From IMG/VR virus record IMGVR_UViG_3300034121_000175, positions 1 through 29,915 of that record: a stretch of 29,915 nt of DNA; one strand, written 5' to 3'. Position numbers and translations under genes: made by a program. The notes under the pieces were generated by a model, which worked only from the letters and a program-made list of their open reading frames with translations, had not been told where the DNA came from and did not search any database. Positions 7,695 through 12,061 of the stretch are shown here, one piece after another. The DNA is from a virus. Each line of letters begins with the position of its first letter. Position 1 is the stretch's first letter.

Positions 7695-8761
7695 TTAAAA
7701 AAAAGCAACTCCCAAGAATAAGACTTAACCAACAAGAATTTGATTTAATACAGCAATTCCGCGCCATAAAAGACAAGTCTAACGAAATGGGCTTGAATGA
7801 AAACGATGTTAAGCACGGTTGGATTAAGACAAAGGACGCTAGTTTGTTCTTTGCGAACCCGTCTTTTAATAGCGGTAAAGAAATAGACCTAGACTTTGTT
7901 AAGCTACTAGAAAACGCACCTAAAATAAACACGGAAAAAGTTAAACGAACTGAATACAGCGGTGAATTTGACAAGCTAGTTTTTACCGATGTTCACATCG
8001 GAATGGATTCCAGCGACAAAGGGCGTAGTTTATACCCGTCCGAATGGAATGAAGACATACTATTTGAGCGTCTGTCTAAAATGATTGATTACACACTAGC
8101 AAAACAGAACTCTAATATCTTACATATACTAGATTTAGGCGACTACCTGGACGGCTTTAACGGACAAACAACGCGAGGTGGCCACACGTTACCGCAAAAC
8201 ATGAGTAACCAAAAAGCGTTCGACGTTGGTTTTATGTTTAAGACTTTACTAATTACACAGCTTTCGCCGTTCTACGATAAAATCTACGTGCGTAATATCT
8301 GTAACGATAATCACAGCGGGGACTTTTCCTACTTCGTTAACCAGTTCTTTAAAACATACGTCGAACGTGATTTAAGAAACGTTTTTGTGACTAATCAGAC
8401 TTTGTTTATTGATCACGAAGTAATAGGTAACAAATGCTTTGTAACGACACACGGAAAAGACACACATAATTTAAAGTTTGGATTCCGTCCTAAAATAGAC
8501 GCGAACCAGATTAACAAAATACTCGGGTATTTAAACACGAACCAACTACTTAATAAAGGTTACGATATTATTTTCGAAAAAGGTGATAGTCATTTATATC
8601 TATTCGACTCGTCTAGTAGTGACGTCTTTAAGTATTACAATTATCCCGCGTTTAGTCCGTCAAGTAACTGGGTGGCTATGAACTTTCAGCTAGGTAAAAG
8701 CGGATTCATACATTTTAACTACGATTTAGAACAAAAGAGTATAAACGAATTCTTTTTTTAG
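7691..8761 (+). CDS. Calcineurin-like metallophosphoesterase
   Basis: 356 residues. Metal-site motifs appear in the canonical order: D100-x-H102 (FTDVHIG), G150-D151-x-x-D154, N205-D206-N207-H208 in place of GNHD, H254 in TTHGKD, and GDSH at 298-301 in place of GHxH. The N-terminal 90 residues are a basic helical extension that could bind nucleic acid. It may act as a nuclease or phosphatase on DNA, like SbcD-type enzymes; substrate unknown. It is the last gene of the head-lysis unit and is followed by a terminator. Confidence 0.85.
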   Translation: MIKKKQLPRIRLNQQEFDLIQQFRAIKDKSNEMGLNENDVKHGWIKTKDASLFFANPSFNSGKEIDLDFVKLLENAPKINTEKVKRTEYSGEFDKLVFTDVHIGMDSSDKGRSLYPSEWNEDILFERLSKMIDYTLAKQNSNILHILDLGDYLDGFNGQTTRGGHTLPQNMSNQKAFDVGFMFKTLLITQLSPFYDKIYVRNICNDNHSGDFSYFVNQFFKTYVERDLRNVFVTNQTLFIDHEVIGNKCFVTTHGKDTHNLKFGFRPKIDANQINKILGYLNTNQLLNKGYDIIFEKGDSHLYLFDSSSSDVFKYYNYPAFSPSSNWVAMNFQLGKSGFIHFNYDLEQKSINEFFF

Positions 8762-8798
8762 TGTATCTTTACATCAGTTAAATTAGTTTTTGTATTAT

Positions 8799-8835
8799 AA
8801 AGGGGGTTGTCATCACGTTGGCAATCCCTTTTTTT
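8799..8835 (+). terminator. Intrinsic terminator of the head-lysis unit
   Basis: Bases 8799-8811 pair with 8820-8832 over an eight-base loop: thirteen pairs including three G-U, ending in a run of seven T (8829-8835). It starts 38 bases after the phosphoesterase stop codon. Confidence 0.88.
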
Positions 8836-8867
8836 ATTCGTTTACCTTTATTCTGTTACAAAAAACG

Positions 8868-8904
8868 TCACAATTTACCCTTGTTTTATTACAATATATT
8901 GTGA
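8868..8904. promoter_or_regulatory. Operator-like palindrome
   Basis: ACAATATATTGT (8891-8902) is a perfect 12-base palindrome, and TCACAAT (8868-8874) is the inverse of ATTGTGA (8898-8904). Both suit a dimeric DNA-binding protein. No matching regulator can be named. Confidence 0.4.
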
Positions 8905-8984
8905 TTTTACATATTATTTTATCCATAAGTGGTCATATAAAGGTCAAATACATATTATAATGTGCTTTATAAGTTACATTTTAC

Positions 8985-9043
8985 ACCTTGTCGGGTATAA
9001 ATAAACCCATTTCCTTTACATTAGTACCTTATCGGGTATAAAT
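8985..9043 (+). repeat. Pair of 18-base direct repeats (ACCTTrTCGGGTATAAAT)
   Basis: Copies at 8985-9002 and 9026-9043 differ at one base and start 41 bases apart, close to four helical turns. Each is preceded by TACATT. They lie 70-150 bases upstream of the early promoter and could be operators or iterons. Confidence 0.75.
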
Positions 9044-9109
9044 TTTTCCTAGTAAAATCAAGGCTTTCAAGATTATTTTGTAAATAAGTGAAAAATAATT
9101 GTTAAAAAG

Positions 9110-9142
9110 TTTGTTTAGATGAAAATATAATACATATCTTTG
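9110..9142 (+). promoter_or_regulatory. Early promoter, Bacteroidetes type
   Basis: TTTG at 9110-9113, 21 bases, then TATCTTTG at 9135-9142: an excellent match to the Bacteroidetes -33/-7 consensus. Transcription should begin about 9148, giving a short A-rich leader to the ATG at 9164. Confidence 0.88.
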
Positions 9143-9163
9143 TAGAAACAAAAACGAAATAAC

Positions 9164-9334
9164 ATGAAAACTGCAACTTTTAAATTTTACGAAATGACTA
9201 ATGAAGGTTTAAAGTACACTATTATTACTTGTCCATTATTAATGGTTTTAAGTAGTGGAAGTATTTTAGTAGAAATGGAAGGCAAACCACAAGGTAAATG
9301 TATTGCATCAGAAAACGTAATATCAATAAAATAA
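9164..9334 (+). CDS. Small early protein, 56 residues, unknown
   Basis: First gene behind the early promoter, with ATG preceded by an A-rich leader. The sequence (MKTATFKFYEMTNEGLKYTI, a hydrophobic LLMVLSSGSILVEM stretch, then GKPQGKCIASENVI) suggests a small beta-rich soluble protein. First-transcribed small phage proteins often act on host functions, but nothing here identifies a target. Confidence 0.7.
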   Translation: MKTATFKFYEMTNEGLKYTIITCPLLMVLSSGSILVEMEGKPQGKCIASENVISIK

Positions 9335-9345
9335 TTTTAATTACT

Positions 9346-9510
9346 ATGAAAGCAAGCGAAATTATTAACATTATCAAAACACAAGAACAAGAACTATACA
9401 ATGAAGTTCAAAAGTGTTTAGAACAATTAGGCGCTAACGACCCTATTACAGATTCAGCGGTTACACGTTGGGCAACTATTAACAATTTATTAAAAACTTT
9501 AGAAGCATGA
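9346..9510 (+). CDS. Small early protein, 54 residues, helical
   Basis: I take the ATG at 9346, preceded by an A/T-rich leader. An upstream in-frame ATG at 9298 lies inside the previous gene. The protein (MKASEIINIIKTQEQELYNE and onwards) is almost entirely predicted helix and may form a coiled coil. Function unknown. Its end overlaps the next start by four bases. Confidence 0.7.
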   Translation: MKASEIINIIKTQEQELYNEVQKCLEQLGANDPITDSAVTRWATINNLLKTLEA

Positions 9511-9701
9511 AAACTACACAAAAACAAACCGAGTTATTAGATCTATTTTTACCCGTAGCTTTATTTTTAGCTGTTATGGTATTCTTTATAGCAACTAGAC
9601 CTAACTACATTAAAGTGGACAAAATAATTCAAGACATACCTACGCACGTTCAAAGTCCCGTACTAGAAAAATATGGCGAACTAATCACTAAACATAAATA
9701 A
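9507..9701 (+). CDS. Small single-pass membrane protein
   Basis: 64 residues with one clear membrane segment (about 11-29, LDLFLPVALFLAVMVFFIA) and a basic soluble tail. Function unknown. ATGA overlap with the previous gene and one-base spacing to the next place it inside the early operon. It might modify the host membrane or exclude other phages; that is speculation. Confidence 0.7.
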   Translation: MKTTQKQTELLDLFLPVALFLAVMVFFIATRPNYIKVDKIIQDIPTHVQSPVLEKYGELITKHK

Positions 9702-10165: not shown

Positions 10166-10332
10166 CACCGAAAGAAAAAGCACAAGAATTAGTAGATAAA
10201 ATGTATCACTATCAATGGCGAGAAAAACAACGAGCAAAAGAATGTGCATTGATTGCAGTTGATTTATTGTTAAGCGAATTTTACGCAGATGATTACTATG
10301 CACAAGTTAAACAAGAAATAGAAAAGTTATGA
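10162..10332 (+). CDS. Small conserved phage protein, 56 residues
   Basis: The pattern MTPKEKAQELVDKM, then AKECALIAVDLLL and VKQEIEKL, is one I recognise as a widespread small helical protein in Bacteroidetes phages and prophages, without known function. ATGA-type overlaps at both ends tie it to the operon. Confidence 0.8.
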   Translation: MTPKEKAQELVDKMYHYQWREKQRAKECALIAVDLLLSEFYADDYYAQVKQEIEKL

Positions 10333-10541
10333 AATACTACTGGAAAATGAAAAACGGAAATTTAATTGATATTGACCAAATGACTGAAACGCATTTACGC
10401 AATACGTTAAAAATGATTGTTAGAAATAGTCAAGTTAAAAAGACTAAAACAAGAACTGGAAATATAGAAGCTAATTTCATGGAAGAACTATTCCTAGAAT
10501 ATGCACAAGACGATTCATTAGATAATTTTTATGGGATATGA
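10329..10541 (+). CDS. Small early protein, 70 residues, unknown
   Basis: The N-terminus (MKYYWKMKNGNLIDIDQMTE) and a long helix (THLRNTLKMIVRN) resemble another recurring small protein of flavobacterial phages. Basic in the middle, acidic at the end. No motif gives a function. Confidence 0.75.
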   Translation: MKYYWKMKNGNLIDIDQMTETHLRNTLKMIVRNSQVKKTKTRTGNIEANFMEELFLEYAQDDSLDNFYGI

Positions 10542-10684
10542 AATATAAACTAGTATACTACAGCGGTTCGAATGTAATTCACAGCTGGACGTTTGATAAT
10601 AAAGCGCTTTGTAATTGGAAGAAAAAGGAATTAAGAACGCGTGGTCTTTGTTTGCTAGGACATTTTAGAATTGAAAAGGTATGA
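10538..10684 (+). CDS. Small basic early protein, 48 residues
   Basis: Runs from an ATGA overlap at 10538 to a TGA overlapping the next ATG. Reads MKYKLVYYSGSNVIHSWTFD and continues with a Lys/Arg-rich stretch. Predicted alpha/beta, soluble. Function unknown. Confidence 0.65.
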   Translation: MKYKLVYYSGSNVIHSWTFDNKALCNWKKKELRTRGLCLLGHFRIEKV

Positions 10685-10923
10685 AACAATGTTTTAAATG
10701 TCGTAGAATGTTAGATCTAAATGAATACACGGACAATAAAAGAGGCTACACCTTAAAAACTGACATGGGTAAAAACAGAGTTTGTAAAATATGTAACTTC
10801 GACAGCGCTGTTAAGAAAAAAAGTCTAGTATCTTTTAACTACGAACAAAAGAAATTTGAAGTAATTAATTTTAATAACATTGGTGAAGTAGGCGAATACT
10901 TCGAAACAAATAAACTGATATGA
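10681..10923 (+). CDS. Small zinc-ribbon-like protein
   Basis: 80 residues with two CxxC knuckles (C4/C7 and C35/C38) about 28 residues apart, enough for one structural zinc site. The second half is beta-rich (SFNYEQKKFEVINF). Possible DNA or protein contact role. It lies directly before the DnaA-like gene, overlapping it by four bases. Confidence 0.75.
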   Translation: MKQCFKCRRMLDLNEYTDNKRGYTLKTDMGKNRVCKICNFDSAVKKKSLVSFNYEQKKFEVINFNNIGEVGEYFETNKLI

Positions 10924-11315
10924 ATAATACAATAGAAAAAGTACATTACTACCTGGAACGTGACGGACTAAACGAAAAGACACGCAAACGCGAAATAGTA
11001 TATAAACGAGCCTATTTAATGCACGTACTACGCTGTCAAAACATGACATTTCACGAAATAGGACAAACATTTAACCGAGATCATGCGACAGCAATTTATC
11101 AATGCAATATGGTAAAGCGTTATTTACACGAATTAAAAGACGAAATATATATTAACTTAATTAGTGAATATTTAGAAGCCTTTGAAGGTGAAAAATACAA
11201 GCCAGAATACTATAATCTTACCGACGACGTGTTAAATTGTACCAGTACGTACGAACTTAAGTTGATAAAAGAACGAATCAAAGAAAATAAGTACGGAAAC
11301 AATGACACAGATTAA
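10920..11315 (+). CDS. DnaA domain-IV-like DNA-binding protein
   Basis: 131 residues. Residues about 28-72 follow the C-terminal DNA-binding domain of DnaA: a helix, then MTFHEIGQTFN and RDHATAIYQC (53-62), which corresponds to the RDHTTVLHA-type signature that contacts DnaA boxes. The AAA+ ATPase is absent, so it cannot act as a full initiator. It could recognise the phage origin, compete with host DnaA at its boxes, or act as a transcription factor. It ends the early operon and is followed by the structured region at 11316-11446. Confidence 0.75.
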   Translation: MNNTIEKVHYYLERDGLNEKTRKREIVYKRAYLMHVLRCQNMTFHEIGQTFNRDHATAIYQCNMVKRYLHELKDEIYINLISEYLEAFEGEKYKPEYYNLTDDVLNCTSTYELKLIKERIKENKYGNNDTD

Positions 11316-11334
11316 AGTAATATAGTTACATTTG
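11298..11334 (+). promoter_or_regulatory. Late promoter-like element S6 plus host-type -7 box
   Basis: TAATATAGTT at 11318-11327 with AAC at 11298-11300, 17 bases upstream. Overlapping it, TACATTTG (11327-11334) matches the Bacteroidetes TAnnTTTG box, though no TTG stands at -33. This is the only copy of the element not close to a coding start; what follows is the structured region. Confidence 0.55.
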
Positions 11335-11339
11335 TAAGC

Positions 11340-11427
11340 GTTCATCCGACATTATAAACGCAAGGTATTATTTAGCCATTTTAATGAACAAGAGGTCGGA
11401 TGCTTGGGATTTAAAGTGGCTTTTTTT
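11340..11427 (+). ncRNA. Candidate structured small RNA ending in a terminator
   Basis: CATCCGAC (11343-11350) pairs perfectly with GTCGGATG (11395-11402). A second helix, 11374-11384 with 11411-11421 (eleven pairs, one G-U), crosses the first, so both together make a pseudoknot. A third option, GTTCAT (11340-11345) with ATGAAC (11384-11389), competes with both. Seven T (11421-11427) follow. It could be a free RNA of about 90 bases driven by S6, or a leader-type switch for the replication genes at 11447. The pairing is seen; the function and 5' end are inferred. Confidence 0.5.
11374..11427 (+). terminator. Hairpin with T-run after the early operon
   Basis: AGCCATTTTAA (11374-11384) and TTAAAGTGGCT (11411-11421) form an eleven-pair stem over a 26-base loop, followed by a T-run. 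The large loop contains half of the competing helix, so termination may be conditional. Confidence 0.6.
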
Positions 11428-11446
11428 ATGCTGAAAAATTAACACA

Positions 11447-12061
11447 ATGAGTAAAGAACTACCATTCTTTAAGTTTAACGCCACCGAGTGGATAACTGGT
11501 AATATCAGTTACGAATCATTCGAACTTCAAGGCGCATTTATTAGCGTGTGTGCTGAATACTGGAATCGAAATAATCAGATGACAATAGAAGAAGCAAAGC
11601 TACGTTTACGTAATGCAGAAATAGTTGATTTATTAATAGCAAAAGGATATTTAAAAACTAAAAAAAATAATTTAGTAATTTTATTTTTGGATTTAGAAAA
11701 GCAAACTATTTCAGCTAAACGTCTGATATTAAGCGAGTCGGGTCGTAAGGGTGGCTTAAGCAAGGCTAAAGGGTCGCTAAAGCAAGGCTCTAGCATTATA
11801 GATAAAGATAAAGAAGAAGATAATATATTAGTTCGCAAACAAAAGTTTGGCGATAAATTAAAGCCTTTTTTGGATTCTTATGAAAAGATAATGATTAGAG
11901 AATTTTACGAATATTGGACAGAACACGGCGACAAGGATAAAAAGATGCGATACGAAAAACAAGCTAGTTTTAATATCGAATTAAGGCTAAAGACATGGCT
12001 TAAAAATAAAATCGAAAGGAATAAACCTAAATTTAATTTACCCACTACAATAATAGACTAA
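11447..12061 (+). CDS. Replication initiation or helicase-loader-like protein
   Basis: 204 residues. The N-terminus (FFKFNATEWITGNI, then ELQGAFISVCAEYWNRNN) is the winged-helix-like domain found in DUF1376 and DnaD-type phage replication proteins. A Gly/Ser/Lys linker (SGRKGGLSKAKG) follows, and the C-terminus (FYEYWTEHGDKDKKMRYEKQ) matches the conserved tail of such proteins, thought to contact helicase or ssDNA. It overlaps the helicase gene by one base, which supports a loader or origin-binding role. Confidence 0.75.
   Translation: MSKELPFFKFNATEWITGNISYESFELQGAFISVCAEYWNRNNQMTIEEAKLRLRNAEIVDLLIAKGYLKTKKNNLVILFLDLEKQTISAKRLILSESGRKGGLSKAKGSLKQGSSIIDKDKEEDNILVRKQKFGDKLKPFLDSYEKIMIREFYEYWTEHGDKDKKMRYEKQASFNIELRLKTWLKNKIERNKPKFNLPTTIID

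Follow-up and report, generated by a model that had tools for sequence, protein, structure and literature searches.

A covarying kissing-loop RNA with a promoter box and a terminator-like end precedes replication genes in Bacteroidota phages and is probably a regulatory switch

In the leaders of the I-complex plasmids a pseudoknot serves as a switch: a long-range pairing activates translation, and an antisense RNA from the opposite strand blocks this pairing. In the countertranscript-driven attenuators of the pT181 type, a terminator is situated in the leader of the replication gene, and loop-loop pairing is decisive. Small RNAs are also known from phages, e.g. the OOP RNA of phage lambda, which has 77 nt and is antisense to cII, and the pRNA of phage phi29, which carries two complementary loops in one small RNA. 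The lambda RNA PreS is Hfq-dependent and targets the host gene dnaN (PMC12197685). The phage RNAs GOLLD and ROOL, which are hundreds of nucleotides long and multimeric, contain conserved kissing loops (PMC12286853).

The RNA described here is located in a virus record of 29.9 kb that was analysed over its whole length (the “window”) and encodes ERF, NinG, and a terminase in addition to replication genes. A gap of 131 nt (11316-11446), between the genes at 10920-11315 and 11447-12061, contains a −7 promoter box, an RNA of 90 nt, and a short 5′-UTR (Table 1). A sequence-only reading of the window had proposed a discrete RNA of about 90 bases between a DnaA-like gene and the replication genes, with a host −7 box on its upstream side. 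The two flanking genes, the box (TACATTTG, 11327-11334), and a structured RNA bounded 5′ by a promoter and 3′ by what resembles an intrinsic terminator, both ends being predicted, agree with that proposal, whereas the late-type element that it had also placed there is not supported. Model R1, of which the window itself is a member, scores the window RNA with 87.8 bits (E 5e-17).

Table 1. Features of the RNA and of its surroundings in the window
Feature	Position	Strand	Basis or remark
Upstream gene with a DnaA C-terminal HTH domain	10920..11315	+	not a constant neighbour of the RNA; only 7 relatives found
−7 promoter box TACATTTG, TAnnTTTG, Bacteroidota sigma-A type	11327..11334	+	sequence; enriched upstream of elements
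Structured RNA: P1, linker, P3/P4 terminator hairpin, U-run	11338..11427	+	covariation; model R1
P1, 5′ arm GCGTT	11338..11342	+	5 of 5 P1 pairs changed on both sides in relatives
P1-loop kissing strand CATCCGAC	11343..11350	+	7 of 8 kissing pairs changed on both sides; 91-95% of cells paired
P1, 3′ arm AACGC	11357..11361	+	covariation
Unpaired 12-nt linker AAGGTATTATTT	11362..11373	+	ATTATT (11367-11372) invariant in class A
P3 terminator stem, 5′ arm	11374..11384	+	97.6% of cells paired; 7 of 11 pairs changed on both sides
GAA side of the GAA/GGA internal loop	11386..11388	+	invariant or nearly so
P4, 5′ arm CAAG	11389..11392	+	4 of 4 P4 pairs changed on both sides
P4-loop kissing strand GTCGGATG	11395..11402	+	covariation; exact complementarity
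P4, 3′ arm CTTG	11403..11406	+	covariation
GGA side of the GAA/GGA internal loop	11407..11409	+	invariant; in the class A search pattern, so partly ascertained
P3, 3′ arm	11411..11421	+	covariation
U-run (T7) of the intrinsic terminator	11421..11427	+	sequence; also present in protein-ascertained relatives that have the element
Short 5′-UTR after the terminator, without promoter box	11428..11446	+	boxes rare in such gaps
Downstream gene, first of the replication module	11447..12061	+	own protein matches only PHROGs of unknown function

Two helices of the RNA cross exactly as proposed: CATCCGAC (11343-11350) and GTCGGATG (11395-11402) form a perfect helix of 8 bp, and 11374-11384 pairs with 11411-11421 over 11 bp and is closed by the anticipated T-run, T7 at 11421-11427. 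The pseudoknot that had been deduced from this crossing is better described as a loop-loop kiss plus P3, because two stems that had been missed, P1 (11338-11342/11357-11361) and P4 (11389-11392/11403-11406), each present one strand of the 8-bp helix in their loop. In the window, P1 reads GCGTT-CATCCGAC-ATTATA-AACGC, and the upper part of the terminator hairpin CAAG-AG-GTCGGATG-CTTG. Folded alone, the window RNA forms P1 and the P3/P4 hairpin with −19.7 kcal/mol (z = −1.5, which is weak evidence); the kiss of the P1 and P4 loops amounts to −11.8 kcal/mol as a free duplex.

About 200 distinct element sequences were obtained from environmental viral contigs, and they fall into two classes, with at least 120 matching viral contigs for the pattern of each class. 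Class A has a kiss of 8-9 bp, and its P3 and P4 are separated by a GAA/GGA internal loop. In class B, the kiss has 6-7 bp with an invariant GCAG/CTGC core, and the internal loop is AGTA/GAA, a loop that we take to resemble the loop-E motif. Both classes have the promoter, P3, and the U-run at the same place, as well as an ATTATT-type linker (in most elements of class B), which, counted to the outermost possible P3 pair, has 13-17 nt in class A and 14-21 nt in class B. The window element belongs to class A, i.e. it has the GAA/GGA loop, does not have a downstream copy of CATCCGAC, and does not show the features of class B. Because the U-run and parts of the internal loops were built into the class patterns, conservation at these sites is partly ascertained. 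The linker ATTATT is also part of the class A search pattern, and relatives that were retrieved via their proteins carry it too. A divergent element with a 10-bp kiss, GCGGCTTCAC/GTGAAGCCGC, at L056 1949-2040 suggests that further classes exist.

In an alignment of 45 distinct class A elements, 93.8% of the cells are paired with the kiss included, versus 72.4% after shuffling, and 23 of the 28 pairs show changes on both sides, values that are lowered by a few rows in which MAFFT places P1 wrongly. The covariation score is 0.614, compared to 0.208 ± 0.011 for shuffles, which do not keep relatedness, and 0.06-0.11 (maximum 0.106) for slid partners, which do. For the stems of 37 class B elements, 95.3% of the cells are paired, and the score is 0.705 versus 0.274 for shuffles and at most 0.177 for slid partners. 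The class B kiss matches in 20 of 20 distinct P1/P4 combinations, versus 22% in shuffles. Taking all elements, the kissing strands are exact complements of at least 6 nt in 204 of 211 cases. Compensatory changes in homologues, on which the sequence-only reading had made its proposal depend, are found in class A as well as in class B. Judged by these comparisons, the conserved stems P1, P3, and P4 and the L1-L4 kiss mark a genuine structured RNA, with covariation being the decisive evidence. An ordinary terminator of the upstream gene that stands next to an unrelated promoter and owes its structure to chance would be expected after a DnaA-like gene and would agree with the unremarkable fold of the single sequence. 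However, compensatory changes in P1, the kiss, P3, and P4 refute a chance structure, and the promoter lies upstream of the terminator and not after it, making this explanation vanishingly improbable.

G-U cells outnumber A-C cells by 96:7 and 77:15 in the two classes, which indicates an RNA of the + strand and not a DNA cruciform. A DNA-level element, e.g. a replication origin or a cruciform, would fit the position before replication genes and the rise of the GC skew around 10-11 kb, but it is largely refuted by this asymmetry, and a promoter at the 5′ edge and a U-run at the 3′ edge are found in one orientation only; we regard it as very improbable. The fold, the kiss, the + strand signature, the promoter box, and the terminator-like 3′ end can all be read from the aligned sequences.

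A third pairing, 11340-11345 with 11384-11389, had been suggested to compete with the two helices and to act as a built-in antiterminator. It exists in the window, but it is not conserved, with 63% of cells paired versus 61.5% in shuffles, and has no covariation above the control. The helix was rejected as an antiterminator for this reason, and no conserved antiterminator was found in the elements. A switch would more likely reside in the partner choice of the P4 loop than in an antiterminator stem.

A box T[AT]nnTTTG is present in 189 of 195 elements, nearly always 7-12 nt 5′ of the kissing strand. The interval upstream of the RNA holds a box in 182 of 194 elements (11 expected), boxes are depleted within the RNA (4 versus 34 expected), and only 6 of 210 gaps between element and ORF contain one. 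Antisense boxes are not enriched around the elements (24 versus 31 and 17 versus 20 expected). The flavobacterial −7 box has been placed at −12 to −5 (PMC9723704), which predicts a start at about 11339, in the first bases of P1. The start and the end of the window RNA are predicted positions.

The distribution of the element was also approached via the downstream protein, which yielded 65 loci. All 50 loci that are closest apart from a few short or distant matches (L002-L051) carry one element upstream of the gene according to the covariance models, with class A being the best match for 39 and class B for 11. As these relatives were found by protein, the high prevalence is not an artefact of RNA-based searching. 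In bacterial genomes, the class B pattern had no match, and the class A pattern had 108 matches, none of which was better than a model E of 0.07 in the loci checked; bacterial genomes are without a credible copy at the sensitivity used.

Several named phages carry the element. With the class A model, Cellulophaga phage phi10:1 was found with an E of 6e-8 and phi13:2, more weakly, with 0.008. The class B model retrieved Olleya phage Harreka_1 (4e-5), Flavobacterium phage FCV-1 (1e-4), and phage 11b (3e-4), and gave weak matches for morran9-1 (0.04) and filifjonk9-1 (0.07). In phi18:3 and Nekkels_1, which has a much longer P3, the element was recognized with the kissing descriptor and by eye; the descriptor is permissive and too noisy on named phages unless its hits are read by eye. 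The weaker cases, represented by few sequences each, all have the promoter box, a kiss of at least 6 nt, P4, and P3, and most are situated just before replication genes; the next gene of FCV-1 is HNH-like by eye. The U-run is weak in phi10:1 and phi18:3. A blastn search of named phages with consensus RNAs gave nothing relevant, whereas covariance models and the kissing descriptor did detect the RNA, which argues that its sequence drifts too fast for blastn. The RNA is unannotated in the named-phage records examined.

Three observations concern individual phages. In Flavobacterium phage morran9-1, the small hypothetical gene gp042 (L382 1367-1510) and the RNA (about 1398-1500) overlap, and the gene has probably been called in error. 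A conserved block of ~45 nt, AGTTATnGGTAATCTTAAAACC, precedes a small ORF before the replication gene in Cellulophaga, Flavobacterium LMO, and Olleya phages (L379 2740-2790, L382 1500-1545, L383 1201-1250) and directly follows the terminator in L379 and L382. Cellulophaga phage Nekkels_1 (L378 2344-2480) has a P3 of roughly 20 bp, a much longer linker, and a possible extra helix GTCTAAC/GTTAGAC; the linker seems to lengthen with P3.

For the assignment of a function, the genes behind the RNA are informative. A same-strand ORF starts within 100 nt of 193 of 193 elements with enough flank, a lax measure that 44% of random positions also satisfy; the point is the tightness of the gap, which has a median of 18 nt. 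A close downstream gene is partly expected, because phage genes are compact and co-directional. In the window, about 20 nt without a promoter separate the U-run from the start of the next gene. The next genes of relatives belong to various families that mostly share one function, with matches to O-like replication initiation proteins, DnaD-like helicase loaders, primosomal proteins, and primases with a BT4734-like N-domain, and a ParB-methyltransferase gene was also found. The RNA is thus the leader of a replication-initiator gene by the PHROG matches of relatives, the window's own gene matching families of unknown function only. An HNH gene or a small ORF sometimes lies between RNA and replication gene, and in several phages NUMOD4/HNH endonuclease genes directly follow the RNA before the replication gene (L335 4085-4480 (−) and similar loci). 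Both classes occur 1.9 kb apart in one genome type (L246, at 10262-11614 (−) and 8193-9680 (−), and L165), the class A element standing before a ParB-N6/N4-methyltransferase fusion and the class B element before a primase-like gene (phrog_28855), and their kissing sequences differ.

The reading we favour, with a probability of roughly 0.58, is a cis-acting promoter-leader-attenuator module of the phage replication operon, with the P4 loop as switching strand. The RNA would probably serve as a switch that regulates the onset of viral DNA replication; its transcription and termination, the regulation with its direction, and the trigger are what we infer from the sequences. A host RNA polymerase of the sigma-A type would start at the first base of P1. 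The P1 hairpin would form first, followed by the linker, by P4, the loop of which would kiss the P1 loop, and at last by P3, the closure of which would free the polymerase at the U-run and yield an RNA of ~85-90 nt. Because no promoter lies between U-run and gene, expression of the operon would need read-through of the terminator, from its own or an upstream promoter, and the leader would therefore be placed to set the amount of replication initiator made. The lack of a conserved antiterminator and the weak U-runs of phi10:1 and phi18:3 speak against such a module.

A second level of control is suggested by sequences before the start codon. The P1-loop sequence is repeated downstream in 65 of 79 class B elements, compared to 19 of 790 swapped controls, and the copy usually ends 0-6 nt before the next ATG. 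Two partners would thus be open to the P4 loop, the P1 loop and the start-codon region, and the sequence is identical at both. The copy covaries with the P4 loop, 10 of 12 distinct combinations matching, and the exceptions look like recombinants. One of them is the chimeric element of L130, in which the start-codon copy mismatches its own P4 loop; in the chimeric L004 and L087, a P1 loop CCTTCGAC stands opposite a P4 loop GTCGGATG. These chimeras offer natural tests of the switch. Four class A elements with CTTCGAC also have a downstream copy, and it is absent from most class A elements, including that of the window. In class B and these few class A elements, the two partners of P4 would be mutually exclusive: P4 on the start-codon site would block initiation, and P4 on P1 would free it. 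Structure around the start codon is known to tune translation initiation in Flavobacterium (PMC6847099). This translational arm would not be universal, as most class A elements have no such copy.

It is possible, though doubtful, that the product of ~90 nt is a discrete small RNA that acts in trans by pairing with host or phage mRNAs or by binding a protein, its proximity to replication genes being incidental. Its own promoter and terminator enclose a molecule as compact as an sRNA, which is conserved in front of widely varying genes. For a phage sRNA that acts on replication, lambda PreS (~88 nt) sets a precedent (PMC12197685). However, the next start codon is at most ~22 nt away from the U-run, with no promoter between, in more than 90% of the cases, and copies of the loop near phage gene starts are no commoner than swapped controls. 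In the phage DNA analysed, sites complementary to the loops, also those near gene starts, show no excess over k-mers swapped in from other phages, apart from the site that directly follows the RNA. These counts speak against trans targets in the phage genomes.

A tree of the downstream protein requires at least 18 changes of the kissing allele, and on it classes A and B have been swapped before the same gene at least three times. For pairs with near-identical coding sequences, the upstream 300 nt are as divergent as the kissing parts. Recombination therefore suffices for the allele turnover, and selection for diversification of the kissing alleles was rejected. In a comparison of locus L142 with the window over 10920-11446, the DnaA-like gene is 98% identical, but a class B RNA and another replication gene follow in L142; this difference is read as a recombination joint at the promoter.

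The turnover bears on a scheme in which cis and trans action are combined and the P4 loop of the terminated RNA would bind the P1 loop or the start-codon site of new transcripts, so that the initiator falls as copies rise, as in plasmid copy control, with kissing sequences specific to each allele. Cis and trans pairing would use the same sequences, and such a feedback would agree with the at least 18 allele changes and with the different kissing sequences of the two elements in one genome (L246, L165). The equal flank divergence, however, explains the turnover by recombination without selection for specificity, and the lack of an enriched antisense promoter argues against the classical antisense scheme; we consider this feedback quite unlikely. 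We also judge it unlikely that the kiss itself acts between molecules, i.e. that terminated RNA accumulates with genome copies and its P4 loop pairs with the P1 loop of nascent leaders, or of the RNA itself in dimers or rings. If true, an intermolecular kiss would let RNA alone sense the copy number in an allele-specific manner and throttle the initiation of replication, possibly also between phages that infect the same cell.

A comparison of the whole window with the covariance models of Rfam 15 gave no match at the gathering score, and at E ≤ 5 the region of the RNA and one class B element gave only irrelevant sub-threshold hits. Models of known riboswitches had no match in the window, and no description of this RNA was found in the open literature. 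By these comparisons, it is an uncatalogued new RNA family, widespread in phages of Bacteroidota, whose mode of control, by a kissing-loop leader, would be of a known kind. The RNA looks like a standard control element of these phages that annotation has overlooked. It would offer a first RNA-level handle on replication timing in Bacteroidota phages and a possible part for gene regulation in Bacteroidota, and for studies that dissect kissing-loop control the family would already supply compensatory mutants made by nature.

Kissing loops are shared with GOLLD and ROOL, which are far longer (PMC12286853); the new RNA has no Rfam match. The phi29 pRNA also has complementary loops, but here there is no Rfam match, the place is at replication and not at packaging genes, and the window encodes an ordinary large terminase. 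OOP and PreS are likewise small phage RNAs, of ~77-90 nt, that are linked to phage replication, but conserved kissing hairpins are not described for them (PMC12197685). The attenuators of the pT181 type share the terminator in the leader and the loop pairing, whereas here there is no antisense RNA and the partner of the loop lies in cis. Taken together with the antisense boxes, the classical plasmid antisense scheme is disfavoured. The I-complex leaders (IncIalpha/ColIb-P9 repZ, IncB, IncL/M repA) likewise precede a replication-initiator gene and have kissing at their centre, and one of their hairpin loops reaches a distant site close to the start of the initiator (PMC10724649), as the P4 loop would in class B. 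The RNA was not filed with them, since it is without their antisense RNA. In contrast to these leaders, pairing of the P4 loop with the start-codon site would block and not activate, and its competitor would be a hairpin further upstream in the same molecule. The carrier here is a phage, antisense promoters are not enriched, and the hairpin that bears P4 doubles as a terminator.
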